Source: a virus | Strand: one strand, 5' to 3' | Virus record (IMG/VR): IMGVR_UViG_3300037264_000808 | Coordinates: 1-43,098 of that record | DNA: 43,098 nt | Shown here: positions 5,917 through 43,087 of the stretch, piece after piece | Layout: each line of letters opens with the position of its first letter | Position numbering within the stretch: position 1 is the first letter of the stretch | Translations under genes and position numbers: made by a program | The notes under the pieces: generated by a model | The model's input: only the letters and a program-made list of their open reading frames with translations | The model's database searches: none | What the model was told of the DNA's origin: nothing

Positions 5917-7428
5917 TTAACGACCATATGCCCCTGCGCTCATTTCCATCACCGGGATATCTTCTTCTCGAACAGCCCAGTTCGCTAATGCAGCACTATC
6001 GGGAAAATCGTCATGGGCATCTTTCTCGTCAGGATGAGCGCATACCAAATATTCTCCTTCATAGCGTTTTTCTAAATCCATCATCTGCTGAACAAACATT
6101 CTTTGGCGTCGTAATTTCTGCGCATTTCCAGTATTTGGAAATCGAACCCGTTCTCCGTACAAATCGTTCAAGAAATATTTATACAAATCAGATTTACTCG
6201 GGCGGGAGAATTTATAGGGAATGACATGAATACTGGGAAGAGAAGCAGTTAATCTATCTGCGATAGGATCACCAACACCAGTTGAATCTACGCACATCTT
6301 TTCGACATTATAATTAGCGAGAAAATCTCGAATCTGATAGAACTGACTTTCATAATCATCTCCGTACAATTCTAACCAGTTCAAAATTCTCTTGTAATAA
6401 AATCCCTCTGCAGTTACATGGTTATAATCTACTTCCATAATTGTCAGAACAGTTGAGTCAGTCGCTTTTGCTAAATCGAGTCCAGCTACTTGTTTACTAT
6501 TTCTGCGAACATCCACTATATCATACGTTTTTCCGCTGTAATCTTTGCCAAGTCTTTCCAATAAATCTGGAGCCATTGCCATTCCGCGTTCAAGAATCCA
6601 GTGCAAACGATAGCTCATGCGGAATTCATCCGAGTCATATCCCAGACGGTTCATTTCTTTTTCAATGTATTTTGCATAGAGGGGATTGTACTTCTGGGCT
6701 ATCTGATAATCATATTCGAAATGATTCTTTTTATTCTCGGAAAGAAGTCTCTTTTTATTTCGTTGAATCGCGTCGTAAAAATCTCCTTTTCGCGTCCAAG
6801 GAGTTCCGATTTTTACAATCGTCGCGTTAGTAGAAGCACCCATCGGATGAATGGATTTCCGCAATTTCGAGTTCGATATCTCTTGACTCTCTTCACAAAT
6901 AATTAAATGAAAAGTCTTTGATTCGATATGAGAATTATCTGACGCGCTCATACACATAATCATTGACCCATTATTTAATGCCACACAATTCCCATTATTA
7001 GAATCGAATCGGACTGACATCTGAGGGATAGAGAAGATTTGTTTGGCGAGTTCTGAATTCATCCGACCACGAACGCGGTCAAATGTCGTTTGTGATTGCT
7101 CTAAAATGGGAGCAAAAATACCAATCCACAAACCATTCTTGAATCGTCTCATGCGCTTATCAGGCTCGTATTGGGGAAGTCGCGCCATAAATGGGAGGAT
7201 AACAGCCATCCCTCCCGCAATCACAGATATCGCTTCCGTCTTCCCACTCTGCCGACTGAATAGCGCAGTAATTTCTTCACCATCATTTTGCACTATGCTC
7301 TCGATAACCCTATTGGCGAATTGAATCTGATAGGGATGAAATTTAATCCCTGAATAGGATTCGCAGAATTGCAAAACCTGATTCGTTATCTCTTTTAATG
7401 GGACCGGATTAAATGTCACTGTCGGCAT
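5917..7428 (-). CDS. terL: Terminase large subunit
   Basis: 503 residues; the packaging motor and headful or site-specific nuclease. The ATPase half has Walker A SRQSGKT (about residues 58-64) and Walker B LIICEE (175-180), with the catalytic glutamate after it. The RNase H-fold nuclease half shows GLDLA (D318), VDSTGVGD (D381) and HDDFPDS (about 472-478), which supply its metal-binding acids. The start ATG overlaps the end of a small gene by 20 bases. No small terminase subunit was recognised nearby; the two small genes just upstream are candidates only by position. Confidence 0.95.
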   Translation of the reverse strand: MPTVTFNPVPLKEITNQVLQFCESYSGIKFHPYQIQFANRVIESIVQNDGEEITALFSRQSGKTEAISVIAGGMAVILPFMARLPQYEPDKRMRRFKNGLWIGIFAPILEQSQTTFDRVRGRMNSELAKQIFSIPQMSVRFDSNNGNCVALNNGSMIMCMSASDNSHIESKTFHLIICEESQEISNSKLRKSIHPMGASTNATIVKIGTPWTRKGDFYDAIQRNKKRLLSENKKNHFEYDYQIAQKYNPLYAKYIEKEMNRLGYDSDEFRMSYRLHWILERGMAMAPDLLERLGKDYSGKTYDIVDVRRNSKQVAGLDLAKATDSTVLTIMEVDYNHVTAEGFYYKRILNWLELYGDDYESQFYQIRDFLANYNVEKMCVDSTGVGDPIADRLTASLPSIHVIPYKFSRPSKSDLYKYFLNDLYGERVRFPNTGNAQKLRRQRMFVQQMMDLEKRYEGEYLVCAHPDEKDAHDDFPDSAALANWAVREEDIPVMEMSAGAYGR

Positions 7429-18082: not shown

Positions 18083-18256
18083 TTACTTCTCCTTAAGGAC
18101 ATTCGTAATTTTTATTGTATTCGTCCCCATGTGGACATCAAAACATTTTTCACAAAATGGGCCGTCGTCACATTCTGCACAGAACCAGGCATCCCTCGCT
18201 TCTCGCATCGTCGATTTCCCGCACTCTTCGCAATTCTCAATTATTTTTTCGGTCAT
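18083..18256 (-). CDS. Small zinc-finger protein
   Basis: 57 residues with three cysteine pairs: C-E-E-C near residue 9, C-A-E-C near 26 and C-E-K-C near 35, enough for one or two zinc sites of B-box or ribbon type. The ATG overlaps the TGA of the preceding gene (ATGA), and the stop is followed directly by the next ATG. The tight packing and cysteine spacing support a real gene. Confidence 0.6.
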   Translation of the reverse strand: MTEKIIENCEECGKSTMREARDAWFCAECDDGPFCEKCFDVHMGTNTIKITNVLKEK

Positions 18257-18462
18257 TTCCCCTCCATCTGTCCCAATTCGTGCGCCAGTTCTTTGATATC
18301 GTTCTCACGCTCTTGCGAGGCTGGCCTGCTTGCCCCGTGGCCGTGCGATAACGCCTTTAACCTACCGAACCACCTTCTTCGGCATAAATCGCCGTAGCCC
18401 CGTTTTAAATCGTTCCTGCGGGTTCGCATGAAACGGCCACAAACGGGACATCGGCGGGGCAT
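18253..18462 (-). CDS. Small Cys-pair protein, now fused to an endonuclease remnant
   Basis: From ATG 18462 a 69-residue protein reads MPRRCPVCGRFMRTRRNDLK, then a cysteine and basic residues. This looks like an ordinary small zinc protein of this region. The same frame stays open upstream into a homing-endonuclease-like sequence (to 18771), so the cell could make either the short protein or a fused 172-residue one. Its end overlaps the next gene by four bases (ATGA). I treat the short form as the likely original gene. Confidence 0.5.
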   Translation of the reverse strand: MPRRCPVCGRFMRTRRNDLKRGYGDLCRRRWFGRLKALSHGHGASRPASQERENDIKELAHELGQMEGK

Positions 18463-18771
18463 TACGCCGCCCTTCCCCTTTCCACCATAATACGGATACC
18501 TGTCACTATTTTTATTGCAACACCGATTAATCATGTATGTCCACGAAAGGTATTCTGTTGTCCTTCCGTTACAAGTTTCTCCATGCGTAATATTTATGGT
18601 TTCATTTCTTAAACATCCGCAAGACTTGGAATCCCCATTCACCAAGCTGAACCGAGCAACAAAAGCTTTCTTCCCACACGAGCAATAACACAAATACTTT
18701 TTATGCCCACACTTAATTACATAAAGCTTTGTTACTGTCCAACGACCAACTCTATCGCTTATTCGTCTCAT
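18253..18771 (-). pseudogene. Truncated HNH/AP2-type homing endonuclease joined to a small zinc gene
   Basis: The first about 100 residues match the N-terminal half of the free-standing HNH endonucleases that start with a Cys-containing nucleic-acid-binding module: YLCYCSCG, SKSCGCL, a THG segment, and LSWTYMINRCCN...YYGGKG. The catalytic second half, normally running from G-R-G-I-x-V-C to N-C-R-W, is missing. The frame instead runs straight into a small zinc protein at about residue 104. This suggests deletion of the endonuclease 3' half with in-frame joining. ATG 18771 overlaps the RNase H stop by four bases. Confidence 0.6.
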
Positions 18772-19202
18772 AAACTTTCACTACCCTTACGGGCTGAGAC
18801 TGCGAGAGCGTTGGCTTGCCAATTCTTTTCTCTCGGCACCCACACAAACTTTATCTTTAATCCGAAAGCAAGCATCCTGGCAATCGGATAACAACGGGAA
18901 TACAAGCCATGACCTACACCCATGCGTTTACTCATCTGTTTTACTACCAACATACTGTCAGAAAGGATGACAATATCCTCAGATTCTAACTTATTTTTCC
19001 TTATCCACTTAAGGCTTGCAATTAAAGCCTCATACTCGGCTACGTTATTAGACATTTGCTTTCCTTCTCCAATAAACTTCCCTTCTGTGTGAAGAACTTT
19101 CTTGTGCCCCTGTGCATCTGTCTCCCTTATGACAATCCCATAGGCCGCTTTTCCTCCCGGGTTCGGATGGCATGCCCCGTCGCCCCATGCACAAATAGTC
19201 AT
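18768..19202 (-). CDS. rnhA: RNase H type I
   Basis: 144 residues, the length of a compact RNase [14 protein letters not shown] provides the first catalytic Asp (D8), [10 protein letters not shown] the Glu (E56) and ILSDSMLV the third acid (D82). At the fourth site, NWQANALA has Asn131 where most relatives have Asp (NxxADxLA), a possible but tolerated change. The enzyme cuts RNA in RNA-DNA hybrids, for example removing primers. The gene is coupled by ATGA overlaps on both sides to endonuclease-like genes. Confidence 0.85.
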
Positions 19203-19639
19203 ATAGACCTCCGACGGTTCTTATTTTGCTGACTATATGTTGCCCACCTACAATTTGTAGGGCAATAATCCCCATCATTGTTAATCCGATCTATCGTCAA
19301 TCCTTTAGGCCTTTCTCCCATATCAGCAAAAAAATTGACAAATTTATGCCACCTCCTACAGACTTTAATTCCTCGGCCACCATATCGTTGAATTATTCCT
19401 TGCCATGTCCGATACGTCGAATAATGCTCACTCCACCCACCATGAGTCTTATTTATCTCTATCGCTAAACACCCGCAAGACTGAGACAATCCGCGCTTTA
19501 ACATCGCTTGACGAACAACGCCTAACTGCCCACATTCACACACGCAAAGGTATCTTTTGCGCCCCTGTACGGGTAAGGCATTACACGCTATTGTCCATCG
19601 CCCAATTTTGTCTCCACGCTTATAAAATGACGCAATCAT
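19199..19639 (-). CDS. HNH homing endonuclease with a shortened middle
   Basis: 146 residues. The order is typical: Cys module (CVCECG, SQSCGCL), [23 protein letters not shown], then the HNH part with [19 protein letters not shown] and a QN-rich end. Between TWQGIIQR and YGGRGI about a dozen residues usual in this family (R-C-x-N and a tyrosine) are missing, so activity is uncertain. It is free-standing rather than intronic, in the same operon as RNase H, which it overlaps by four bases. Confidence 0.75.
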
Positions 19640-25711: not shown

Positions 25712-27133
25712 CTACGCGTACACCTTTTGTCTATTGCCTTTTTGCTTCTTCAAGTTCATCACCTCGATAATTTCCAGCATCCTGTCTTTGTTCTTCACAT
25801 TTTTAACGAGGTGAAGTGTGTCGCTAATGGCACCTATCTGCGAATGACTAAACCACTTCCCATAACCCAATATGACTGAATGATTCTTTATTTCTCCTCG
25901 CTCTTCATTCACCTTCTTAGCATCAATACTAGACTCTCCATCCGTCAGCGTTAATATCTGGCAGTTCTTCAAGTCCAATTCGACCTTATCGAGCTTGTCT
26001 TTCACCTTCGCTTTCTTAATGTCGGATACTGCTTTCAAGACAGCTTTCTGAATGTCTGTTCCTCCACCTGGGAATCTCATGTGCAATAATTTCCTACACA
26101 ATTCCTGCGCTTCTTCTTTGGTAGAAGCCGACATTAATTCATGCGGGTCATCTTCAAACATCCGCATATGATAATGGTCTCCAGCCGTTGCAACTCGTCG
26201 CAATAAAGACAGGGCAATACTCATTGCACACACAGCCCTATCTCCCTGCATTGAGCCCGACACATCCATCAAGATATAAACCAACTGCCTTTTATCTTGC
26301 CGAATCATAAACTCTCGGCACATCAATTCCTTCTTCGCATACTTCATGTAGAAGGTATCAGACGGAAGAGCCAATTGACCTGGCAATAACTTGAACAGGT
26401 CTTTGCTGTCCCTTATCTTGTGGATGTCCACTGAGTTATCAGGAAATGGACTGGGATTCCAAATGCCCATCTTGGAGAACGTCATTGCAAAGTCCAATTC
26501 CTGACTTATCAATAACGCCTGCACCATATACGGGTCCCACGTCTGTGTAAGACTTTCAAACGCCTTCTCCAATCCAACTGAACCACTTCCACCCATCGGC
26601 ATTGGTTGATTTTCCTGGCTGTCATCGTCTTGACCATTCCCCGGAGCCGGCTGCGGTGGAGGGTCGAACATCCCTTCCAACAACGGGTCGTTCAATAACT
26701 GAAGAACTTTTCTGCCAGTATCAATGAGCCTCTCGAACTCATCCATCCCCTGTTGCTGTCGTCCACCTCCTTGCTGTCTTTGCTTTCTATCCAACTCGGC
26801 CATGATTTCCCACATACGGTCAAAGAACTGTGGAATCTCTGCCTGATTTCTTGGGTAATAATCACTCTCAACTAACTCATGCAAGAAATGAGAATATCTA
26901 CTGCGTCTACTTAACTCTGTGTATATCTCGCTGACCTTTCCTCTCTTGTAATTCTCCAACACCTTATCGAATATGACGTTAGGCTTTATAAGAGATTCCG
27001 GGTCTTCACACACGCGCCAGAAGTCTTTAAGAATATCCTCATCAACAAAGCCGAATCTGTCCTTAACTTTATCGAACATATCCTGCAGTTGTGGATGAAA
27101 ATGATAATCCACTAAGCCGCTTGTAATCCTCAT
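25712..27133 (-). CDS. VWA-domain protein, partner of the MoxR ATPase (ViaA/CoxE-like)
   Basis: 473 residues. The N-terminal about 270 residues are helical with a Q/G/P-rich linker near 120-190. The C-terminal domain is a von Willebrand A fold: ILMDVSGSM (DxSxS, about 290-294), a FPGGGTD threonine loop and LTDGES, together the MIDAS metal site. This arrangement, helical part then VWA, encoded directly downstream of a MoxR AAA+ ATPase, is that of RavA-ViaA and related pairs that remodel other proteins or load metals. The phage target is unknown. The ribosome site is GGAGG. Confidence 0.8.
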   Translation of the reverse strand: MRITSGLVDYHFHPQLQDMFDKVKDRFGFVDEDILKDFWRVCEDPESLIKPNVIFDKVLENYKRGKVSEIYTELSRRSRYSHFLHELVESDYYPRNQAEIPQFFDRMWEIMAELDRKQRQQGGGRQQQGMDEFERLIDTGRKVLQLLNDPLLEGMFDPPPQPAPGNGQDDDSQENQPMPMGGSGSVGLEKAFESLTQTWDPYMVQALLISQELDFAMTFSKMGIWNPSPFPDNSVDIHKIRDSKDLFKLLPGQLALPSDTFYMKYAKKELMCREFMIRQDKRQLVYILMDVSGSMQGDRAVCAMSIALSLLRRVATAGDHYHMRMFEDDPHELMSASTKEEAQELCRKLLHMRFPGGGTDIQKAVLKAVSDIKKAKVKDKLDKVELDLKNCQILTLTDGESSIDAKKVNEERGEIKNHSVILGYGKWFSHSQIGAISDTLHLVKNVKNKDRMLEIIEVMNLKKQKGNRQKVYA

Positions 27134-27142
27134 CGGAACCTC

Positions 27143-28546
27143 CTAGATATTATTTTCTTCTTCCGCGTCCATGTCTGTATTTAATTCGTGCGCTACTGTC
27201 GGATGGATGATTCCTGCCAACACACCTTTGGCGAATGGGTCACCTACTTGTTGCCCATCTGCGGAATCAAGCACCAATCCTGCTTTCACCATACCCGGCT
27301 CACCAACCTGTTGCTTGATTGCTTCAATGTTTGTTCTCACCTGCTCCATCATTTTGCTCGCTTCCTGTTTCGAGTTATCAACCTCGAATTTTCCAGCCGC
27401 GTCGTTTATTTTGTCAATAACCTCTTGGAGTTTCCGAATCTTCATCACCCCATCGAATTCCTTTTTCTTATGGAACTTCGTGGTCATCACCTCTTCAACT
27501 TCTTTCAGTAATAACGACAGCGTGTTATTTTCTCCAACTGATTTCTTGCGGTCACTGATTTGCTTGTAGACAATCGCTTCCCACACCTGTTGGTCTTTGT
27601 GGTCATTCCCCATGCAGATTGAATACTTCAGCAAGGGTATGTCCTCCAATAACACCATCGTCCGTCCATGAACAACAGCCACCGACTTCAACAGCTTTAA
27701 CATCTTCACCGCTGTTCTATCACTGACGTATTTCGTGGTCTGTCTCACATACTCTTTCAATACTGAGTCATATAAACCCAATACCGTTTCGCTTACAGTC
27801 ACGGATTCGGATTTAATGAACCTCACCAGTTTTTTCAGCGTATCCAATGCCAACTGGTCCTCTGCATCCAGTTCAACATGACCGTTGGAATTAAACACCA
27901 AGGCATTTTTATACATCCTCATTCTGCCTGTTGCTGTTCCAATGGGAGACACATCACTCTTGAATAATATGCGGTCAAGAATGGCTTCCGTTGATTCCTC
28001 TTCCCGCGAATAATTACTCGTGAGAATGGCTGTATGCAACGGACATTTTTCCTTCTGCGTATTTCGCGTAAATGTCCTCTCATTCAGGATTTCCAGTAAT
28101 GACCGAAGCAACACATCCGAGCCATCAAAGAACTCGTCGATGAAAGCGAAGTTACTGTCCACGATGGTGTTCTTCGTGTTGTGGACAATCTCTCCTTCTT
28201 CTCGCAATTTCTTCACGTTGATTGGCCCGAACAAATAATCTTCAGACATGAACTTCGACAACTGAACCTCAAAGTTGGTGGCTCCTGTGATATTTGAAAA
28301 CACAGACCTCCCAAGTTGAGATTTCGCCGTACCGGGCTTTCCTTTTAACAGGATATGCTCTTGAGTTAAGAGCGCGTACTTAATCTGCTCCAACTCATCG
28401 TCGCGGTCTATGAACCGCTTCTTCAACAACCCAAAGAAGTTATTGAACTTTTCTACCGACTCTCTTACAGATGACGGTAAGTCTTCGCCTATTGGAGTGC
28501 CGGACCTTGTTTTCTTCACTTCTTTGATGCTTATTTTGATTCCCAT
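27143..28546 (-). CDS. MoxR/RavA-type AAA+ ATPase
   Basis: 467 residues. Walker A is GKPGTAKS (69-76), Walker B FAFIDEFF (133-140), sensor 1 TSN (176-178) and an arginine finger sits in LDRILFK (about 192). The YLFGPINVKKL segment and the order of motifs mark the MoxR branch. The C-terminal about 150 residues form a charged helical extension. These ATPases act as chaperones that, with a VWA partner, alter protein complexes or insert metal cofactors. The VWA gene follows ten bases on. The start is supported by AAAGGAG. Confidence 0.85.
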   Translation of the reverse strand: MGIKISIKEVKKTRSGTPIGEDLPSSVRESVEKFNNFFGLLKKRFIDRDDELEQIKYALLTQEHILLKGKPGTAKSQLGRSVFSNITGATNFEVQLSKFMSEDYLFGPINVKKLREEGEIVHNTKNTIVDSNFAFIDEFFDGSDVLLRSLLEILNERTFTRNTQKEKCPLHTAILTSNYSREEESTEAILDRILFKSDVSPIGTATGRMRMYKNALVFNSNGHVELDAEDQLALDTLKKLVRFIKSESVTVSETVLGLYDSVLKEYVRQTTKYVSDRTAVKMLKLLKSVAVVHGRTMVLLEDIPLLKYSICMGNDHKDQQVWEAIVYKQISDRKKSVGENNTLSLLLKEVEEVMTTKFHKKKEFDGVMKIRKLQEVIDKINDAAGKFEVDNSKQEASKMMEQVRTNIEAIKQQVGEPGMVKAGLVLDSADGQQVGDPFAKGVLAGIIHPTVAHELNTDMDAEEENNI

Positions 28547-30219: not shown

Positions 30220-30407
30220 TCACAGACGCATTTACCGTCCATGAAATAATCGCAATCACCAAAACAACTTTTACATAGACCCTTTGATTCCTCGTCTATC
30301 TTCTTTTGCGTGTTATCTCTGAGCTTCTGAACTTCTTCATCCGTTATGCTTTCAGGTATCAACATCACCTTTCGCCAATTCTTTATTTGCTCCGGCGTCA
30401 TATTCAT
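30036..30407 (-). CDS. Cys-rich small protein overlapping the zinc ribbon
   Basis: 123 residues from ATG 30407, which overlaps the ligase stop (TAATG). The first half is helical and polar (TPEQIKNWRKVM); around residues 53-68 it has C-K-S-C-F-G-D-C...C-V-C-D-C-H, strongly cysteine-rich and likely metal-binding. The C-terminal about 60 residues overlap the ribbon gene in another frame and look unlike a domain, so the functional part may end near residue 65. A single-base change could have split one longer protein here. Confidence 0.5.
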   Translation of the reverse strand: MNMTPEQIKNWRKVMLIPESITDEEVQKLRDNTQKKIDEESKGLCKSCFGDCDYFMDGKCVCDCHLNGTLKMLLLALIARQSRIPKLGMGIPPFTVPTEKGMSVIVTIVGKLFSLKKWLAGHG

Positions 30408-31387
30408 TAGGCATACCTCACTTTTTGTTCGCCAAACACATCGTCCCACTTACAGTCCCGCGCATTCTTATCGAATCGAAAGCACACAAACCTCGGATGA
30501 CGAATGGCGTCTTTAAGAACCTCTTGGCCAGTTATTGTTATGACCTTCCCAAGATGTTTGTCCGGGTCCTTGCTAATCTTCTCCCGAATTAAATCGCTCA
30601 TCCCGCTTGTCTTTCCAATCTCTACCAACACCCGATTTTTATATGCACCGTATCGAATCGCACCAATCCACCCGTTCGTAAAGAATCTATTAACGGAGAC
30701 AGTTCCATCGACCTTTGTTGTCATGCGTTCAGGGTCATCGTAACCCGTTATAACCACATCCCAATCACTCTCTTTTTTTAATTTCATCCACCACCCTTTG
30801 TTGCGTGAATCCTGCCAGTAAGGACTTTCTTTGTGTTTGAGAATGATTCCTTCCAACCCGTTTGAAGTCGCATACTGAACCAACTTTTCTTTATCTTTAT
30901 ACGAACGGATTCTTTCGACGTGTTCGTTGTTCCATTCCTCAACAACTTTTTTGCGATATGCTCTCCGTTCTCGATAAGGCAATTTCTGAATGTCTTGGCC
31001 TTTATAAAAGAGAACATCAAACAACGCATAGACGACATACCCTTGCTCTTTTTGACGTTCAATCGCAAGTGCAGGACTCGCCCCCATAATACTCGTCACT
31101 ACATTCGACGACGATTTCTCTCCACCAACTACGATCTCCCCATCAGCAATGGTTCCTAATAAATGCGGAACCGGCTTATTTAAGTGGGGAAGATTTCCTG
31201 TCTTCTCAACGGGCTTTCCATCTTTAACAGAATTACGCCGGCTGTAAAAGTGAACCCCGTCTTTATCAAAGTGAGCCACATAACGCGACCCATCTAATTT
31301 TAATTCGCCTACCCAATCAGGGTCTTTCATAGCCCGCTTAATGTCTATCTCTGACCCCCTTGCTGCGAGCATTGGCTTAATCTCCAT
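30407..31387 (-). CDS. ATP-dependent DNA ligase
   Basis: 326 residues. Motif I is KLDGSR (lysine about 30, which carries the AMP). Downstream are a motif III-like VVYALFDVLFYKG, EGIILKH (motif IV) and KLKKE (motif V). The C-terminal part has an OB-fold-like beta domain. It seals DNA nicks using ATP and probably acts in replication or repair. It has a GGAGGCGTT site and is a typical small phage ligase without extra domains. Confidence 0.9.
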   Translation of the reverse strand: MEIKPMLAARGSEIDIKRAMKDPDWVGELKLDGSRYVAHFDKDGVHFYSRRNSVKDGKPVEKTGNLPHLNKPVPHLLGTIADGEIVVGGEKSSSNVVTSIMGASPALAIERQKEQGYVVYALFDVLFYKGQDIQKLPYRERRAYRKKVVEEWNNEHVERIRSYKDKEKLVQYATSNGLEGIILKHKESPYWQDSRNKGWWMKLKKESDWDVVITGYDDPERMTTKVDGTVSVNRFFTNGWIGAIRYGAYKNRVLVEIGKTSGMSDLIREKISKDPDKHLGKVITITGQEVLKDAIRHPRFVCFRFDKNARDCKWDDVFGEQKVRYA

Positions 31388-34798: not shown

Positions 34799-35146
34799 TT
34801 ATGCCTCTACCTCTTGCCTTCTGTTATATGCCGATACCGTCGCCTTTGTCGGGGCCTTTATTGTGTCCGTGATAAAAAGCCCGTTTCCTTCATTCCATCG
34901 GACTTTGTATCTCCCGTCCTTTAATATCTCCTCGATTTTGGCTCCGTAGAACCTGCCGTCCTTCCAAAGTCCTAAGCATATATCGCCTTGACTCGGATTA
35001 AACGGTTCCGGTTCCTTCTTAATTGATACGCGCCGGATAGTATTTTCACCGAGGACTTTTAACAAGGCCTCGATATTATTTAACCGTTCCGGTATCAATA
35101 AGATTTCCTTGGGAATTGAGACGCTATTTTCCTGTGCCTTTTTCAT
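34799..35146 (-). CDS. Tudor-like-domain protein
   Basis: 115 residues. The first half is helical (IPKEILLIPERLNNIEALLKVL). Residues about 55-95 read GDICLGLWKDGRFYGAKIEE plus strands resembling the Tudor-like end of the protein at 31514 (GDKVMAEW...FYKATV). Tudor-like barrels bind peptides or nucleic acid. Two hairpins lie in its leader (35162-35177 and 35202-35268). The ribosome site is AAAGGAGAAA. Confidence 0.6.
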   Translation of the reverse strand: MKKAQENSVSIPKEILLIPERLNNIEALLKVLGENTIRRVSIKKEPEPFNPSQGDICLGLWKDGRFYGAKIEEILKDGRYKVRWNEGNGLFITDTIKAPTKATVSAYNRRQEVEA

Positions 35147-35942: not shown

Positions 35943-37643
35943 TTACATCTTGCGAGCTTTCATGCGTTCGAGAAAGCTCAAATTCTCGGTCTTGGGACCA
36001 CTTATTATGGGTGCTTGTGGCGTTTCTTTTGCGTTTTGGGGCTCTTTTTCATCGAAATCGCTGTCTATATCATCTTGCGATGTTTCCGCGTCTTGTGGCT
36101 CATTCTGGGGCGTTTCTTCGGGCTCTTGTGATGCGCTCTCAGGCTCTTGTGGCTCTTCTTCAGCCAATTCCGCGTCTTTCACATTGCTCGGGGTCACATT
36201 CACAATATTTTTAGGCCCAAATATGCGTTCTAAAATCTGTGAACCTTCAATCGTTATCTTATCTTTTTGTGGAAGAATGTCCTGATATAATTCGGCCAAA
36301 AGCTTGTGATAGTTAATCAATTCCTGAAATTGAGCTGACACATTCTTGTCTGCTACCCCGCCGTCTAATTGCTCAAAATAGAGATTGCGATTGGCTCTTG
36401 TCTCAAGCGTTTCGATCATCTCTTTGATTTTGCGCACACAATCATGCGGATTCGTTGTGGGAAATCGTTTGAAAGTCGGAATCAGCGTACACATGGAGCC
36501 GGCTGCGAACTTCGGGCATGTGTTCTTTGCGTAACAATTATTGCACACAAGACTCGTTTCGATGTGCTGTTGAGAGTGCAAATCCATCGCCATTGACCTG
36601 TCTGCATCATCCAATAAGGGCGGTCTATTGCGTCCCACAGCCAATCCAGTCTCGGGTATTTCCATCCCATTTGATGCGATTTCAGTCTTTGGAGGGACTA
36701 CCTCTTCAGGCTCCACCTGGTCGGAAGTGTCAGAAACCGTATCAGGTTTCTTCTTTTGCGCTTCAGGCAATAGTTCTTTCACAGTCATGTGAGAGTCTTT
36801 CTTTTCCCACCATTGCTGGCTCTTTGTGCGTTCGTTGATGTATTTCTCGCATTCCAACCATGCGATAACATTGGCCTTTCCAACCTCATAATTATCTTCA
36901 GCTTCAATCTTCTTCCAGTCACATCCAATGCGCTCGAAATAAGTCTTATAGCGTTTGCGGTATTGCTTGTCATCTTTGCGCAGTTCAATCAGCGTCCTCT
37001 TCCACCAAATAAACAGACAGCCATATTGCTCACCAGTCAGCCATCGTGTCGAGTCCACAGTATAAAATGGAGCCTTCATTAATATATCAGGTTTGGTCAT
37101 CGCGAACCCATGCACCTTCGCGCCATATTTGCTTGCAATCTTTATAAATTGTCTAAAGCGTTCACCAGGGATATCATCAGGCAGACCAACCATCTTGTGT
37201 CGCTTGCACATATCTTCCCAGCCATCGTAACCTCGTTCTTTATGCCACACATAGATAACTGGTATGCCTGTTTCTTTCTCAAAAGGCTCAAACAATCGCG
37301 TCTGTAATTTTTTAACAAGCGCGAGTGATGTGCTTTCTTCAATGTCCAATTCAACCACAGAGAATATCTTGTCTTTGTTCTTGAGAGCCCAAGCCAAATA
37401 TTCCTCACAGTATTTTGTGTAAAAGCGTTCTGGATTGCCTCCACTCACATCACCTTGTTGAATTGTATGCGCACCAGAGTCAATCATGAATTTCATGTCA
37501 GGTGTCGCGAGTTCAAAAGCCACAGGATTCTGTATGCGCTTCTGTCTAATGTAATAATAACTCAACAGAATATTCTTGGCCCCACCAGCCAAAATCTTCT
37601 TGATGTGTTCGTTATTTTCGCCACCAGAGAAAAACATCAACAT
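35943..37643 (-). CDS. dpdA: DpdA-like DNA 7-deazaguanine transglycosylase with C-terminal Cys-cluster extension
   Basis: 566 residues. The N-terminal about 230 residues carry TGT/DpdA signatures: MIDSGAHT (about 55-60), VELDIEE (97-103) holding a catalytic-type acid, HGFAMTKPDIL (178-188) and VDSTRWLTG (196-204). DpdA enzymes exchange guanine in DNA for preQ0 or related bases. A proline-rich linker leads to C-x2-C-x5-C-x8-C (about 367-385), perhaps zinc or Fe-S, then helix and an acidic tail rich in E-P-Q. Start ATG 37643 shares its first base with the preceding stop (TGATG). Last gene of the que operon, followed by a terminator. Confidence 0.8.
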   Translation of the reverse strand: MLMFFSGGENNEHIKKILAGGAKNILLSYYYIRQKRIQNPVAFELATPDMKFMIDSGAHTIQQGDVSGGNPERFYTKYCEEYLAWALKNKDKIFSVVELDIEESTSLALVKKLQTRLFEPFEKETGIPVIYVWHKERGYDGWEDMCKRHKMVGLPDDIPGERFRQFIKIASKYGAKVHGFAMTKPDILMKAPFYTVDSTRWLTGEQYGCLFIWWKRTLIELRKDDKQYRKRYKTYFERIGCDWKKIEAEDNYEVGKANVIAWLECEKYINERTKSQQWWEKKDSHMTVKELLPEAQKKKPDTVSDTSDQVEPEEVVPPKTEIASNGMEIPETGLAVGRNRPPLLDDADRSMAMDLHSQQHIETSLVCNNCYAKNTCPKFAAGSMCTLIPTFKRFPTTNPHDCVRKIKEMIETLETRANRNLYFEQLDGGVADKNVSAQFQELINYHKLLAELYQDILPQKDKITIEGSQILERIFGPKNIVNVTPSNVKDAELAEEEPQEPESASQEPEETPQNEPQDAETSQDDIDSDFDEKEPQNAKETPQAPIISGPKTENLSFLERMKARKM

Positions 37644-37843
37644 CACAGCACCTCAAACACAAATTCTTCTTTCTTGTTTAATATCGACAGAAAATACTCA
37701 GAAGGAGATGAGCGCACAGTATGAATAGACACAATGCGTTCTCCTTTCTTCCAGAAGTTTTCGTTCACATCTTGGTCAATGAACATCTTATAACCTCTGC
37801 GCTCTAATTCAGCGATGTTTGCTTTTGTTCTTTCGTCGCCCAT
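37643..37843 (-). CDS. Small protein of unknown function between PRTase and DpdA
   Basis: 66 residues from ATG 37843, one base after the PRTase stop. Mixed alpha/beta with basic and aromatic residues (ERRGYKMFIDQDVNENFWKK). It overlaps the dpdA start. An accessory role to its neighbours is only inferred from coupling. Confidence 0.55.
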   Translation of the reverse strand: MGDERTKANIAELERRGYKMFIDQDVNENFWKKGERIVSIHTVRSSPSEYFLSILNKKEEFVFEVL

Positions 37844-37844
37844 A

Positions 37845-38135
37845 TTATTTATATTTGTCGTTAATTTCCCAAGGGAATTGCACCCATTCACTTATCTGCT
37901 CGCGTTGTTTATCTATCAATGCCCAGAATGGCTTGCCATATATTTTATCGCATTGAGCTTTCGTTGAGCCAGTATCCAATATGTCATCAACAATCACATC
38001 AGCTTCTTCCCATGTGTCTACAGCTCTACCAGTCATTCCAGCCACAACAGCTCCACCTCTAGGAATGCCATAAAGCTTTCCTTCAGGCGCGTTCTTTAAT
38101 CGTTCAAAAACCTCAGCCCATTTCACAATCTTCAT
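37845..38135 (-). CDS. Minimal phosphoribosyltransferase
   Basis: 96 residues from ATG 38135 (GGAGG six bases upstream). VIVDDILDTGST (about 47-58) is the PRPP-binding signature of type I PRTases, and YGIPRGGAVVA before it is the usual loop. At 96 residues it is much shorter than typical PRTases, which exceed 150, so it may be a stripped form or a binding protein. Sitting between QueE and DpdA it could handle a base or nucleotide in the 7-deazaguanine path; this is inference. Confidence 0.75.
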   Translation of the reverse strand: MKIVKWAEVFERLKNAPEGKLYGIPRGGAVVAGMTGRAVDTWEEADVIVDDILDTGSTKAQCDKIYGKPFWALIDKQREQISEWVQFPWEINDKYK

Positions 38136-38145
38136 AGAAGCCTCC

Positions 38146-38358
38146 TCATTGCACAATGATTCGTGTCCCATTGTAATGCCCAATCTCGTTTGGCAGAACC
38201 AACACATCATAGGGATATAAATTAACAGGCCTGAATCCAGGTTCTCGTCGGATTATCAGGCTCATGTTCTCGCTGATATAGCGAACAGGGCTATTCTTTA
38301 TATCGTATGTTGGTTTCGGCATTGGAGGCTTGTATGGAAACTCAGGCATCCTTGGCAT
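38146..38358 (-). CDS. Small proline-rich-start protein
   Basis: 70 residues. A P-rich, basic start (PRMPEFPYKPPMPKP) then a beta-type body (YDVLVLPNEIGHYNGTRIIV). It overlaps the next small gene by 17 bases. Function unknown. Confidence 0.55.
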   Translation of the reverse strand: MPRMPEFPYKPPMPKPTYDIKNSPVRYISENMSLIIRREPGFRPVNLYPYDVLVLPNEIGHYNGTRIIVQ

Positions 38359-38503
38359 TATCTTTATCCTTCTTAAATATATTCATCAAGACTTCTCTCA
38401 GTAAATCTATCCCACCTTCGCGTGTAATCTTTGAGAATTGCAATTGAAATCTACCAATGCGAATCGTTATTATATTCTGCGATTCAGTCACTATTTCACT
38501 CAT
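38342..38503 (-). CDS. Small basic protein of unknown function
   Basis: 53 residues from ATG 38503, which overlaps the queE stop (ATGA). Contains an amphipathic core (IITIRIGRFQLQFSKI) and a helix ending in basic residues. It may be an accessory of the operon; nothing more can be said. Confidence 0.55.
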   Translation of the reverse strand: MSEIVTESQNIITIRIGRFQLQFSKITREGGIDLLREVLMNIFKKDKDNAKDA

Positions 38504-39093
38504 CGTAATCCCCAAAATTTATGTTGCTGCACAGACAATCGCCATGTGGGATTCTGAAGAACAAGGCCAACACAATAATCAAGCGTCTTTCTATCCAATC
38601 CATCTGCGCCAAATGCAGGACTGATATAAAAGTAATCAGCTTTAATCATTGTCTTCGGTATGCTCTGGCCATGTGCGCGTACATAGCGGACCTCATTGGC
38701 TTTGGTAACCTTAAGCGTGTGTTCAGCGGTCTTCGGAGAGACACAGACCCAATCAAGTCCTTCAGGGAGGGCAATTGTGCCATTGGTTTCAATGGCGAGA
38801 TAGTATCCATCTCGTTTGAGACGGTTGATGAGGACATCATCCAGTTGTAATCCTGGTTCTCCTCCTGTGAAGATGACGTTGTGGCAGTACTCGAAGTGTT
38901 TGAGTTCGGCGCACAAGTCGTCCAATAAGTAATCCCGTCCTGATATGAATTCAGTATCACAATCAAATCCCTCCTTCTCTTTCACACAGCGCAAGTTGCA
39001 GTTCGAAAACCGAATGAAGATGTCAGCAGTTCCAGCTCTGGCACCTTCACCCTGTATCGAATAGAAAATTTCATTGATGCGATATTTCTTCAA
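38500..39093 (-). CDS. queE: QueE, 7-carboxy-7-deazaguanine synthase (radical SAM)
   Basis: 197 residues from TTG 39093 (an in-frame stop lies directly upstream; GGGAG nearby). The opening YSIQGEGARAGTADIFIRF is characteristic of QueE. The iron-sulphur cysteines are C-x3-C-x8-C (C32, C36, C45) rather than the canonical C-x3-C-x2-C, with an extra K-E-K-E-G-F loop, and FTGGEP follows. It makes CDG from the pterin that QueD produces. Length is normal for QueE. Coupled by overlaps on both sides. Confidence 0.88.
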   Translation of the reverse strand: MKKYRINEIFYSIQGEGARAGTADIFIRFSNCNLRCVKEKEGFDCDTEFISGRDYLLDDLCAELKHFEYCHNVIFTGGEPGLQLDDVLINRLKRDGYYLAIETNGTIALPEGLDWVCVSPKTAEHTLKVTKANEVRYVRAHGQSIPKTMIKADYFYISPAFGADGLDRKTLDYCVGLVLQNPTWRLSVQQHKFWGLR

Positions 39094-39203
39094 TCAGTCA
39101 ATCTCCCAAAAATGAATCCAATAATGCCACCAATAATAGCGGCCTTGAATATATCGGATTCAATTACCTCTCTGCATATGCGAAAGAACTCTTCTGAGAT
39201 CAT
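39090..39203 (-). CDS. 37-residue membrane peptide
   Basis: Starts at ATG 39203, overlapping the VWA stop by four bases (ATGA), and ends at the queE start. A charged beginning (EEFFRICREVIES) is followed by one hydrophobic segment (AAIIGGIIGFIFGRL). It could anchor a partner at the membrane. Function unknown. Confidence 0.5.
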   Translation of the reverse strand: MISEEFFRICREVIESDIFKAAIIGGIIGFIFGRLTD

Positions 39204-39853
39204 TTGGAACTGGATGAAGATGTTGCTTCCACAGCTTCATCGCGGTCATGCTGCGAATAAGCCATGTTCACCACATCACCTGAGCGATACATCGCCAAGT
39301 TATGAGAAGTCGCGCTAAATGAATTCTTCACACCAACAGCAGTCGCAGAGAAGTTCATCGCATTCGCTGTACTAATCCCCAAGCTGTCTGCTTCTTTCAA
39401 TGCGTCTTGATTCGCGCCCAAGAAAACAAACTGCCATTGATATTTCTCTGATTGCTGCTTGATAAGTTCATTGATGCGAGCCTTTTTATATTCTTTCGAT
39501 GAGTTCTCTTCTCCGTCGGTAATAATCACAAACACAACCTTGCTCGGTCTATCGTGTTCAGGCATCTTATCGAGGCGTTCTCCAGTCTCAACAATGGCTT
39601 TACCAATAGCATCCAAGAGTGCAGTTGCTCCTCGTGGTTGAAACACCAATGAAGGCACATCTTTGATATTAATTGCGCGATGGACAAATTCGTATTCAGT
39701 ATCGAATTGCACCAATGTGAAATTAGCCGCACCAGAAGCTTTCTTCTGGTCATCTACGAATTTATTGAATCCACCAATCGTGTCGTTTATTACTGTGGCC
39801 ATAGAACCACTTCTATCCAATACAACTGTGATGTCTGTTAAGTCTTGTCTCAT
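39200..39853 (-). CDS. VWA-domain protein in the que operon
   Basis: 217 residues from ATG 39853 (ATGA overlap with the HNH gene). The domain starts near the N-terminus: ITVVLDRSGSM (DxSxS), a G-A-T-A-L-L-D threonine loop near residue 75 and ITDGEEN are the MIDAS elements. After the domain comes a basic region, then a Ser-rich tail. VWA proteins typically mediate metal-dependent protein contacts. Its position among 7-deazaguanine genes is unexpected; it could organise the pathway or be an independent cargo gene. Confidence 0.8.
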   Translation of the reverse strand: MRQDLTDITVVLDRSGSMATVINDTIGGFNKFVDDQKKASGAANFTLVQFDTEYEFVHRAINIKDVPSLVFQPRGATALLDAIGKAIVETGERLDKMPEHDRPSKVVFVIITDGEENSSKEYKKARINELIKQQSEKYQWQFVFLGANQDALKEADSLGISTANAMNFSATAVGVKNSFSATSHNLAMYRSGDVVNMAYSQHDRDEAVEATSSSSSK

Positions 39854-40221
39854 TTCGCTGCCTCCTCTTGTTTCTTTCCAAATATCTGTTTCAATTCTTG
39901 TGAGGTTAATTTGGAAGTCCAATGATTATTGCCACAGATGCGTCCTTTCTTTGCAGCATCCCTCATGTTATCTGAACGAGTACCTATCCAAAGATGTGAT
40001 GGGCGTACACATGAAGGATTGTCACAGCGATGACACACATCCATTCCTTTTGGTTTCGCTCCACAAAAGAGTCGATAAGTAAAAACATGTGCCAATATTT
40101 TATGTGTATGTGTTATGCGAAATTCTCCATACCCATTATATGTGCGTGATCCAAGCCATACCCAACATCGACCATGAAAATCGACTTTAGCCCAGAATCT
40201 TTTAAGGATTGCTCTTTTCAC
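39850..40221 (-). CDS. HNH endonuclease (free-standing), GTG start
   Basis: 123 residues from GTG 40221 (AGGAGG about ten bases upstream, inside queD). Typical start FWAKVDFHGRCWVW and a YGEFRI strand precede the HNH core VCHRCDNPSCVRPSHLWIGT with conserved His, Cys pair and Asn. It would cut DNA near its own insertion site. It overlaps queD by 20 bases and the VWA gene by four. Confidence 0.85.
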   Translation of the reverse strand: MKRAILKRFWAKVDFHGRCWVWLGSRTYNGYGEFRITHTHKILAHVFTYRLFCGAKPKGMDVCHRCDNPSCVRPSHLWIGTRSDNMRDAAKKGRICGNNHWTSKLTSQELKQIFGKKQEEAAK

Positions 40222-40603
40222 CAGCAGTTTCCTCCTGTTGCATCTCCCAACGAACTTTATTATTGGGAGTTTCCCATATCTCCACAGCCCAACACACAGG
40301 TCTATTCATCTCCAAGTCCAGCTTCTCTTGCGTGTAGAATGCCAAGATGCGAGCGAAGTTCTCAGCAGTCGGCTGCAAATCTTTGAACTCATCCATTTTA
40401 TTAAGATTCTGGTGATCGAACTTATTAACAATTTCTTTTATTGCGGTGAAGTCCACAATCATCCCGAACTCATTAATCTGTTCTGCCAGAATAAATACCT
40501 TGATGCGCCATCTATGCCCATGCTGTCCATTGCATTTCGATGGGTATGGCAGCTTAAGAAAATGTCCAGCGTCTATTTCATCTTCAACTTCAGCATAAAA
40601 CAT
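40202..40603 (-). CDS. queD: QueD, 6-carboxytetrahydropterin synthase
   Basis: 133 residues, normal for QueD. Zinc ligands are H14 and HGH (H28, H30). The catalytic Cys (C24) is in C-N-G-Q-H-G-H, and the G-M-I-V-D-F, D-H-Q-N-L-N and P-T-A-E-N-F-A motifs follow, with E residues at VEIWET. It converts dihydroneopterin triphosphate into carboxytetrahydropterin. FolE, the step before, is not in the window. Follows queC by three bases. Confidence 0.9.
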   Translation of the reverse strand: MFYAEVEDEIDAGHFLKLPYPSKCNGQHGHRWRIKVFILAEQINEFGMIVDFTAIKEIVNKFDHQNLNKMDEFKDLQPTAENFARILAFYTQEKLDLEMNRPVCWAVEIWETPNNKVRWEMQQEETAGEKSNP

Positions 40604-40606
40604 AAT

Positions 40607-41287
40607 TCATCTCCTATAATTAATTGGGTCTGTCGCGTGATTAATACAGAAAGCTTCCAGTCGCTCTTGGCATGAAGCACATCTTCCACATGCAGGATAA
40701 GTGCCTTCATAGCATGTGTGCGTCAAATCATAGGGCACACCAAGCTTAATTCCCAGCTTCACAATCGCACTCTTCTTCATATTAATAAAGGGCGCGTGTA
40801 TTGTGATATTGCGCTCATTCCCCCACCTCATCGCGGATTGAAATGGCTTTACAAATGTGTCTCTGCAATCAGGATAAATCGCGTAATCATTCGAGTGAGC
40901 CCCATAAAACACATCAATTATATCTCTGCTCAATCCCACACCAACAGCAATTGACAACATAATCGCGTTTCTATTGGGAACAATGGTGAGCTTTTGATTC
41001 TTGTGCGTGTAATGTTCATGAGGAATAGCCTTTCTCTTATCTGTGAGGTGGCTATTTAATTTGAGGGATGTCAAATCAATTACTTGATGCGTAATCTTCC
41101 CATTCACATCATTGAAATGCTTGACCAATTTCTTTGCGCAAGTAATCTCTCGTCGATGTCTCTGACCATAATCAAACGTAATGGCGTGAATATGATAGTT
41201 CTTGTCGTATAAATCAGCGAGTAAAGTTGCGCTATCCAATCCACCCGAGAGTATCAGGGTACAGGTTTTCGTCGAGGTTTTGGGCAT
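40607..41287 (-). CDS. queC: QueC, preQ0 synthase
   Basis: 226 residues. SGGLDS (14-19) is the ATP-binding loop of this PP-loop family, FDYGQRHRRE the next conserved motif, and C-Y-E-G-T-Y-P-A-C-G-R-C-A-S-C near the end holds the zinc. It turns CDG into preQ0 with ATP and ammonia. It is a single-domain QueC with no amidotransferase fusion (Gat-QueC), so it is not set up to make archaeosine-type bases. It overlaps queF by 56 bases; GGAGG lies ten bases before its ATG. Confidence 0.92.
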   Translation of the reverse strand: MPKTSTKTCTLILSGGLDSATLLADLYDKNYHIHAITFDYGQRHRREITCAKKLVKHFNDVNGKITHQVIDLTSLKLNSHLTDKRKAIPHEHYTHKNQKLTIVPNRNAIMLSIAVGVGLSRDIIDVFYGAHSNDYAIYPDCRDTFVKPFQSAMRWGNERNITIHAPFINMKKSAIVKLGIKLGVPYDLTHTCYEGTYPACGRCASCQERLEAFCINHATDPINYRR

Positions 41288-41699
41288 TGTTTAAGTCCTC
41301 CTGGTTTCTAAGTGCTATGACTCTTTCTATAATTCCACCGCGCATATTGAATTCACCACGAACGCGAATAGAATAGGGCTTCATCACATCAAATAAATCG
41401 CTGCATACCTGATTAACCACTTCTTCTTGAAACATGTCTTTATCGCGAAATTTAACCAAGTATTCTTTAAGAGCTTTCGTTTCAACAATCCATTTCGTCG
41501 GAATGTAATCAATCAATAATTTCCCAAAGTCAGGAGCTTTTGTGAGTGGACAGAATGTAGATACCTCTGTGCATTCCAATGAAATGCGAAAAGGTTTATC
41601 GACCGTATTCTCTAAGAGAGTCAAGTCTTTCTTAAAATCCAAGTCATAAATCTCTACCTTCTTATTTCCCAATGCTTCATCCATCGTTTGATAGGGCAT
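41232..41699 (-). CDS. queF: QueF, preQ0 reductase (YkvM type)
   Basis: 155 residues, single-domain (Bacillus YkvM type). The catalytic Cys is in TFCPLTKAPDFG (C50), with the conserved Asp at D57. VETKALKEYLVKF is the QueF motif that binds NADPH, and MRGGI follows. It reduces preQ0 to preQ1 with NADPH. Its presence beside DpdA implies the phage can make preQ1, rather than stopping at preQ0, for DNA or for another use. Starts four bases after the YkgJ-like gene. Confidence 0.9.
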   Translation of the reverse strand: MPYQTMDEALGNKKVEIYDLDFKKDLTLLENTVDKPFRISLECTEVSTFCPLTKAPDFGKLLIDYIPTKWIVETKALKEYLVKFRDKDMFQEEVVNQVCSDLFDVMKPYSIRVRGEFNMRGGIIERVIALRNQEDLNNAQNLDENLYPDTLGWIG

Positions 41700-41702
41700 A
41701 TG

Positions 41703-42206
41703 TCACTCCTTTGTAGACTCGTAATCATTGAAATAGGCGGGAATTAAATTGAACTCAGTCTTCCACACCTCCCAACATATCTTGTTCATATCAACTGCGT
41801 CTTTCCATAATTTAGGGAACACACCGAATGCTCGATGCCACAATTCTTTCGTGCTTTTGAATCCTTCAAATGTCAGATAAGGAACCCCAGAACATCTCAA
41901 GCAAATCCACAGCCCAACAAACAATCCATCCTTGATGCATGGGAAGTATGGATAGGACATGCAATCAATTGGTCGTCGCTCATATATCGTGCATCCCAAT
42001 CCCACCCCATTCGGTCCAGCTTTGAAACAATCAGGACATGCTTTTGGCGCGTCATATTCAGGCACTCTATCACCAAAGAAGTTCGTGCTATTGAATTCGC
42101 GCTGGACAAATGTGCAGCAAGGTTTAGGGCAAACAGTACACCTATCCTCGCTGAACAAATTGGCCTGTTTATAATCTTGAAAGACTTCGAGTATCTTCTT
42201 GTCCAT
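41703..42206 (-). CDS. YkgJ-like cysteine-cluster protein
   Basis: 167 residues. C-T-V-C-P-K-P-C-C near the start, C-P-D-C and later single Cys (CTIYERRPIDCMSYPYFPC) match YkgJ-type proteins, which bind zinc or an iron cluster through conserved Cys. Family function is unknown, with roles in metal handling suggested. Overlaps SpoVS by one base (TAATG) and precedes queF by three bases. It could help mature QueE's iron-sulphur cluster; this is inference. Confidence 0.75.
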   Translation of the reverse strand: MDKKILEVFQDYKQANLFSEDRCTVCPKPCCTFVQREFNSTNFFGDRVPEYDAPKACPDCFKAGPNGVGLGCTIYERRPIDCMSYPYFPCIKDGLFVGLWICLRCSGVPYLTFEGFKSTKELWHRAFGVFPKLWKDAVDMNKICWEVWKTEFNLIPAYFNDYESTKE

Positions 42207-42472
42207 TATCTCAACACAATTAATCGAATTGCGGTCTTCGTTTCGTTGTTGATTAATAAATCAACAAACCCAGGTCGAATCGTTAAATCCCATCCCATCA
42301 GAGCCCCTAATCCTCGTGCTATCGTAATTGCTTTGATCGCTTGATTCATCGCACCAGCACCAATAGAAAGAGTCTCTACATCTCGTCCCTCCTGCATATT
42401 CTTAATCACAGAAGTTGCTACCTTCGCGGAGTTTGAAGCCGCAGCTACCTTAAGCGTAATTGTTTCAGCCAT
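42206..42472 (-). CDS. spoVS: SpoVS-like (Alba-fold type) protein
   Basis: 88 residues. The pattern LKVAAASNSAKVATSV, I-G-A-G-A-M-N-Q-A-I-K-A-I-T-I-A-R-G and T-A-I-R-L-I-V closely follows bacterial SpoVS, a small protein of the Alba-like fold that affects sporulation and septation in Bacillus and may bind nucleic acid. Length and start agree with the family. In a phage it may bind DNA or interfere with host regulation. It overlaps the YkgJ-like gene by one base. Confidence 0.82.
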   Translation of the reverse strand: MAETITLKVAAASNSAKVATSVIKNMQEGRDVETLSIGAGAMNQAIKAITIARGLGALMGWDLTIRPGFVDLLINNETKTAIRLIVLR

Positions 42473-42514: not shown

Positions 42515-43087
42515 CTATGTCGCTTCGTTTTTTAAGACCACAGATAGTACCTCTCGTTCATACTTCGGAACATCGGTAGGTATCTTCCCAGCCTTTTGTT
42601 GCAAAATTCGTAAACCAATCTGAGCGAGTATAAAAGCGTCAGTCTGGTCATCATCTTTGAGTTCAATCCCATATTTACGGTACACACTCAACATGATTTT
42701 ATTCTTGTCGCCTTTCCCAGAACCAGTCCCAAACTTCTTCAAGCTCATTGGGGCCACAATATGAACAGGAACACCATGCTTCCACAGTTCGCATTTAATT
42801 ATCCCACCAAGCTCCCCAAGACCAAATGCGTGACCAACAGCCGGCGTGAAAGCATAACCTTCCATCACAGCTATTGCAGGTTCGTATTTATAAAGAAAGT
42901 CCTCAACATATTGACCATAATCAATCAATCGTTGAGTGCCTTTTGTTTTAGGAGAGACAGTTTCGGCGTGAATTAATTCGTTCGCGGGATTGAGAATGAC
43001 AAGCCCAGTGTGAGTAAGAGAGGCGTCTATTCCCAGGATGCAGATATTAAGGTTTGGCTTCTTGTGCTGTATCAGTTTTATTTTCAT
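42515..43087 (-). CDS. RuvC-like Holliday-junction resolvase
   Basis: 190 residues. ILGIDASLTHTGLVI has the first catalytic Asp, VMEGYAF the second acid, and DDDQTDAFILAQIG the last acids of the RuvC RNase H-type nuclease. The order and length match phage RuvC-like resolvases that cut branched DNA before packaging or after recombination. It is the first gene of the operon visible here; its promoter is outside the window. Confidence 0.85.
   Translation of the reverse strand: MKIKLIQHKKPNLNICILGIDASLTHTGLVILNPANELIHAETVSPKTKGTQRLIDYGQYVEDFLYKYEPAIAVMEGYAFTPAVGHAFGLGELGGIIKCELWKHGVPVHIVAPMSLKKFGTGSGKGDKNKIMLSVYRKYGIELKDDDQTDAFILAQIGLRILQQKAGKIPTDVPKYEREVLSVVLKNEAT

Follow-up and report, generated by a model that had tools for sequence, protein, structure and literature searches.

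A predicted preQ1 DNA-modification operon with a xanthine-guanine phosphoribosyltransferase-like gene in a tailed-phage fragment

The DNA of Streptococcus phage Dp-1 has been found to carry dPreQ1, and dPreQ1 only, with no dG+ (PMC6884629), and that of halovirus HVTV-1 also contains dPreQ1 (PMC6884629). The combination of DpdA, the pathway to 7-cyano-7-deazaguanine (preQ0) and QueF defines group 1 of Hutinet 2019, and DpdA is most likely a base-exchanging enzyme, like tRNA-guanine transglycosylase (TGT) (PMC6884629). Here, an operon of this kind is described from the IMG/VR record IMGVR_UViG_3300037264_000808, a linear, probably incomplete tailed-phage fragment of 43 kb (43,098 nucleotides, the window of this analysis), in which queF, queC, queD, queE and dpdA lie between positions 35,943 and 41,699. 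The operon is best read as directing a modification of phage DNA with preQ1 (7-aminomethyl-7-deazaguanine) against host nucleases, together with the recycling of DpdA-released guanine by an enzyme resembling xanthine-guanine phosphoribosyltransferase (XGPRT), and we give this reading a probability of roughly 0.6. The preQ1 chemistry is not new in kind, being already known in other phages, and the operon provides a further instance of a known means of countering restriction, one in which both DpdA and QueF are unusual. The new element is a combination, that of a DpdA bearing a zinc (Zn) domain with a free XGPRT-like enzyme, FolE not having been found in the fragment, and the link to the phosphoribosyltransferase (PRTase) is the testable novelty of the operon.

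The que genes, DpdA and the predicted base

The initial annotation had placed queF, queC, queD, queE and a dpdA-like gene in one overlapping operon. Curated profiles agree with all five assignments, and the four que proteins were additionally matched to solved relatives. The five genes are packed as claimed, but they do not stand by themselves, an HNH nuclease, a von Willebrand factor A (VWA) protein, small open reading frames (ORFs) and the PRTase-like gene being interspersed among them. The packed run, all of it on the minus strand, extends from a SpoVS gene (42472) through the end of dpdA (35943), with neighbours that overlap or lie at most 10 bases apart.

The queF gene (41232..41699) encodes a predicted preQ0 reductase of the unimodular type, with 155 aa, which reaches 113.5 bits against TIGR03139 (cut-off 86.9). 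Among solved relatives it matches B. subtilis QueF with an E value of 6.6e-19, versus just 0.006 for the archaeosine synthase QueF-L, and residues C50, D57, E73, K75, K78, Y80 and E92 are invariant between it and the QueF proteins of Dp-1, HVTV-1 and B. subtilis. The marks of type II QueF, that is, a score above the TIGR03139 cut-off, the Cys and Asp of the active site and the NADPH motif, are all present, and its sequence places the protein with the nitrile reductases. Among 80 viral contigs selected through QueC, an independent sample, 12 carry both queF and dpdA.

QueD, QueE and QueC are all encoded, as in group 1 of Hutinet 2019. The product of queC (40607..41287), a preQ0 synthase of 226 aa, scores 197 bits against TIGR00364 (cut-off 150), matches PF06508 over residues 10-214 (E 4.5e-63) and keeps the SGGLDS loop and the four zinc cysteines. 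PF06508 is its only domain, and the ArcS-type domain DUF5591 was not found in the fragment, so that the two features absent according to the initial annotation, an amidotransferase fusion and an ArcS-like gene, are indeed missing; these are the features by which an archaeosine-type (dG+) pathway would have been recognised in the fragment. The queD gene (40202..40603) encodes a 6-carboxytetrahydropterin synthase of 133 aa (PF01242, E 6.5e-29) with a CNGQHGH motif. Starting at a TTG codon, queE (38500..39093) encodes a radical-SAM 7-carboxy-7-deazaguanine synthase of 197 aa that matches TIGR04508 (E 3e-46, which falls short of its equivalog cut-off) and the B. multivorans QueE 4njg (E 9.5e-33); its three Cys, spaced CX3CX8C, are all invariant in an alignment of phage QueE proteins, among which the spacing varies. 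FolE was not found in the 43-kb fragment, where the sole PF01227 match is QueF, and, the record being incomplete, the genome may still encode it.

The last gene of the run, dpdA (35943..37643), more likely starts at the ATG at 37643 than at the GTG at 37646, and provides the DpdA of a group 1 system. Its product, a DNA-guanine transglycosylase-type protein of 566 aa, matches PHROG 887 over residues 1-479 (E 2e-52) and is composed of a TIM barrel (1-275, for which the AlphaFold2 (AF2) confidence score, pLDDT, is mostly above 90), a disordered linker, a four-cysteine helical domain at about 370-480 and an acidic tail. Residues D55, D100, H178 and D197 are invariant across 15 related proteins, both catalytic Asp being kept, and alignment of its profile with hhalign to the 9g/Dp-1 profile, which represents the validated 9g DpdA family, gave a probability of 99.9 (E 1.6e-33). 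The best sequence match in the PDB is the DNA-guanine transglycosylase 7ui4, a weak one (E 0.07). A fold search with the full model returned only generic TIM barrels, not TGT specifically, and the family membership thus rests on profiles. Single-protein scans of IMG/VR with DpdA and with QueC found no close relative. Taking together the reductase-type QueF, a DpdA with its catalytic Asp and the dPreQ1 made by the Dp-1 operon, preQ1-type DNA modification, as initially proposed, is supported as the best reading.

The C-terminal domain of DpdA, a CxxC...CP...C segment and two helices after the disordered linker, was modelled by AF2 at about 80 pLDDT. In Bacteroides phage BS162P1 and several gut-phage contigs it has a gene of its own, directly after dpdA, and in other phages it is fused to DpdA; this alternation between fusion and adjacency suggests that it is probably an accessory or partner of DpdA, with a role perhaps in DNA binding or target choice. 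A SpoVS gene adjoins dpdA in 17 of the 25 loci with the Zn domain and in 0 of the 55 without it, lineages being shared among them. A link of the domain to terminase small subunits was discarded, the hits reaching just E 0.04-0.13 and the match in ReqiDocB7 (E 5) spanning two genes.

Two variants of dpdA were observed in other phages. In the Streptomyces phages GiJojo, Alone3 and BRock (L004:8001-9503, L016 and L017/L031), the nucleophilic Asp of DpdA-type proteins that bear the Zn domain is replaced by Ala or Ser (VASTSW/VSSTSW), and their genes have no que genes around them; these proteins are probably inactive transglycosylases or enzymes of another chemistry. In the gut phage MT835482 (L005:8950-11148), a large insertion resembling an intein splits dpdA precisely at its catalytic DSS motif.

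The XGPRT-like gene and its relatives

Upstream of dpdA, a gene with a good ribosome-binding site (37845..38135) encodes a mini xanthine-guanine PRTase-like protein of 96 aa. The initial annotation, whose preQ1 route stands, had overlooked this gene, as well as the C-terminal domain of DpdA and the absence of FolE. The protein is 52% identical to the PRTase halves of phage FolE fusions, and the best PDB matches of its profile are the purine PRTase 1vdm (E 3e-14) and E. coli XGPRT (E 9e-12). Its AF2 model (pLDDT 94.6) has the XGPRT fold, and the top 24 PDB matches found with Foldseek are all xanthine-guanine-type or related 6-oxopurine PRTases (TMq 0.58-0.70). The loop that binds phosphoribosyl pyrophosphate (PRPP), with its catalytic Asp, the base-binding Lys and Trp and the W..PW(E/D) motif are all present. 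Among 72 non-redundant relatives, D50, D51, D54 and G56 are conserved at 100%, W84 at 99% and PWE at 97-100%, the catalytic and base-binding residues as a whole being 86-100% conserved in the alignment.

These relatives were first met as FolE fusions in contigs selected through DpdA. IMG/VR was then scanned with a generic PRPP motif, confirmed by the fragment's own PRTase, and the 80 loci obtained are a sample. Among the matches listed, the PRTase forms the N-terminal half of a FolE fusion in 62 of 80 and is separate in 18, and folE, que or dpdA genes are found at 77. Of the 33 matches in GenBank phages, none is annotated as a PRTase, each being either part of an annotated GTP cyclohydrolase gene or in an unannotated record. 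The PRTase-FolE genes of Quinobequin-P09, VpKK5 and MMDA13 encode about 300 aa, and the 'GTP cyclohydrolase' genes of Queuovirinae phages (e.g., L255:5899-6792) are bifunctional in architecture, with an N-terminal PRTase domain that has gone unannotated. The PRTase would be a candidate enzyme step inside the 'GTP cyclohydrolase' genes of the characterised phages Quinobequin-P09, PaMx25, NP1, VpKK5 and MMDA13. No PRTase of this type was found in GTDB genomes by a pattern-based contig scan, which is consistent with a phage-only form, and literature searches found no phosphoribosyltransferase in a phage 7-deazaguanine context, Hutinet 2019 making no mention of one.

In phylogenetic analysis, the fragment's PRTase is nested inside the FolE-fused clade (support 0.93-0.97), and a free gene in this position suggests that this lineage lost FolE while retaining the PRTase; a FolE remnant was sought beside the gene and not found. 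The PRTase is enriched with DpdA, both among QueC-selected contigs (20 of 47 versus 4 of 33, p 0.006) and at the level of whole contigs (11 of 24 versus 3 of 21, p 0.03), neither value being corrected for phylogeny.

Proposed mechanism and alternatives

It is proposed that dihydroneopterin triphosphate, supplied by the FolE of the host or by a phage FolE encoded outside the fragment, would be converted to preQ0 by QueD, QueE and QueC, and that QueF would then reduce preQ0 to preQ1. DpdA would swap guanine in the DNA for a 7-deazaguanine base, preQ1 being either the base that enters or one formed in place, two possibilities that apply to Dp-1 too (PMC6884629), and the phage DNA, with some of its guanines replaced by preQ1, would escape host nucleases. 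The families of the proteins, their intact catalytic residues and the structure of the operon can be read from the sequence itself; preQ1 is most likely the base, is most likely present in the DNA and most likely protects it. If DpdA exchanges bases, each insertion frees one guanine, which the XGPRT-like enzyme would join to PRPP to give GMP. Host kinases would return GMP to GTP, the substrate of FolE and the start of the pathway, and the fusion of PRTase to FolE would be explained by recycled GTP feeding this first, GTP-consuming step. Guanine as substrate and recycling as role would agree with the predicted fold, the catalytic residues and the genomic linkage of the PRTase. As a broader proposal, held tentatively and at somewhat less than even odds, many DNA-modifying phages, including studied ones, would possess a hidden guanine PRTase, FolE-fused or free, that closes a purine loop from DpdA-released guanine to GTP. 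If true, this role would account for the fate of that guanine.

Several observations weigh against this scheme. The fragment is incomplete and the preQ1 chemistry is predicted from sequence, and in QueF the active-site His that precedes the catalytic E92 (His96 in B. subtilis) is Gln91. This change beside the catalytic Glu would fit a DNA that carries preQ0 or a mixture, QueF being otherwise used or inactive, as would the insertion of preQ0 by the 9g DpdA when expressed alone (PMC6884629). Such an outcome is nevertheless unlikely, taking into account that queF is intact and heads the que genes, that other phage QueF proteins also lack this His, with Gln in Cellulophaga phage phi38:2 and Cys in Mycobacterium phage Knocker and Arthrobacter phage Mufasa8, and that Dp-1, with the same gene order, has dPreQ1 alone. 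It has also been reported that HHpred ties phage QueF proteins to QueF-L (PMC6884629), which would make QueF an archaeosine synthase and the modified base dG+; with B. subtilis QueF as the far better match, the E-K-K-Y core of the NADPH motif retained and no dG+ in Dp-1, there is very little to be said for this. Equally slight is the chance that the operon supplies queuosine for host or phage tRNA, with the dpdA product acting on tRNA: QueF, QueC, QueD and QueE do form the usual route to this tRNA base, but the transglycosylase belongs to the DNA-acting DpdA group, as indicated by the hhalign match to the 9g DpdA and by 7ui4, the latter just at E 0.07.

With regard to guanine recycling, the flexible loop used in catalysis by full-length XGPRT is missing from the PRTase, whose PRGG-VDD segment is shortened to a median of 28 residues; its activity is for this reason not certain, and it is called Gpt-like rather than Gpt. 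In addition, the association of PRTase with DpdA ignores phylogeny, three long contigs have a PRTase but no detected DpdA, and phage 9g modifies its DNA though its FolE (204 aa) is too short to include a PRTase. The missing loop, and the fact that most relatives are fused to FolE, would suit a role in regulation or scaffolding, with the domain sensing purines or PRPP on behalf of FolE. We consider this somewhat unlikely, as the catalytic and base-binding residues are so well conserved and the gene is free here, in a fragment where no FolE was found, and also stands apart from folE in 18 of the 80 loci. The PRTase could also add ribose phosphate to preQ0 or preQ1, whose 2-amino-6-oxo face is also that of guanine, and the modified nucleotide would reach DNA through the deoxynucleoside triphosphate pool, a route to which the modified DNA of HVTV-1, a virus with no DpdA of its own, lends some support (PMC6884629). 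The enrichment of the PRTase in DpdA-bearing phages speaks against this route, as does HVTV-1 itself, whose folE encodes 199 aa and which is not among the PRTase matches. Moreover, XGPRT contacts N7 of the base, an atom absent from 7-deazaguanines, and the dNTP-pool route is on the whole improbable. Recycling of DpdA-released guanine within preQ1 modification remains the preferred reading.

Neighbouring genes and comparison with known systems

Nearly all genes of the fragment are on the minus strand, and they include those for the major head protein (97-1101), portal (2451-4019), terminase (5917-7428), DNA ligase (30407-31387) and RuvC (42515-43087). The operon probably starts upstream of queF, at a cysteine-rich protein and SpoVS. 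The SpoVS-family gene (42206..42472, 88 aa; PF04232, E 5.8e-24) is the first of the packed run, and the cysteine-rich protein of 167 aa (41703..42206), encoded 3 bases from queF, had no match in family profile searches and is possibly YkgJ-like; a YkgJ-type gene adjoins dpdA in Pseudanabaena phage Pan1. Within the operon, the HNH endonuclease gene (39850..40221; PF13392, E 9.3e-12) is probably a homing insertion, and it is followed by the VWA-domain protein (39200..39853, start ATG at 39853; PF00092, E 3.1e-8; PHROG 7371, E 1e-65). A small ORF (38342..38503) overlaps the end of queE. The next, of 70 aa (38146..38358), weakly matches the major head protein family phrog_1357 (E 5e-4), and its reading as a head-protein duplicate was rejected, there being no real similarity to the fragment's own head protein. 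Between the PRTase gene and dpdA, an ORF of 66 aa (37643..37843), whose stop overlaps the dpdA start, had no family in profile searches.

Elsewhere in the window, a MoxR ATPase is paired with a VWA protein at 25712-28546, similar pairs occurring near dpdA in four other loci (L028, L030, L032 and L066). At 18253-19639, an RNase H-like ORF lies between two HNH ORFs that both match PHROG 374, the arrangement being that of a duplicated or broken homing endonuclease. A small protein at 34799-35146 has a weak Tudor-like match (PF18104, E 6.5e-5), unusual in a phage.

Among described systems, Dp-1 (HQ268735) shares with the fragment the order queF-queC-queD-queE-...-dpdA on one strand, and its QueF is 34% identical. 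Unlike the fragment, it has folE and queT, a DpdA of 311 aa without the C-terminal domain and no annotated PRTase gene, whereas the fragment has PRTase, HNH and VWA genes and no folE was found in it. HVTV-1, its DNA bearing dPreQ1, likewise encodes QueF, QueC, QueD and QueE, but its genes, folE included, are spread out and it lacks DpdA. The Queuovirinae phages 9g, Quinobequin-P09 and VpKK5 resemble the fragment in having que genes and DpdA and differ in having no QueF annotated; 9g and Quinobequin, moreover, carry an amidotransferase-QueC for dG+. The PRTase domain of the fragment's type lies inside folE in Quinobequin-P09 and VpKK5, and is absent from the 204-aa FolE of 9g. The DpdA proteins of BS162P1, BRock, GiJojo and Alone3 (PHROG 887) share the four-cysteine C-terminal domain, either fused or encoded by the adjoining gene, and are just 26-32% identical to that of the fragment. 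Finally, E. coli Gpt has the fold, PRPP loop, Lys and W-PW-E/D of the phage PRTase; it counts 152 aa against 96, the phage form being without the flexible loop, and, unlike Gpt, the phage enzyme is encoded beside or within folE.

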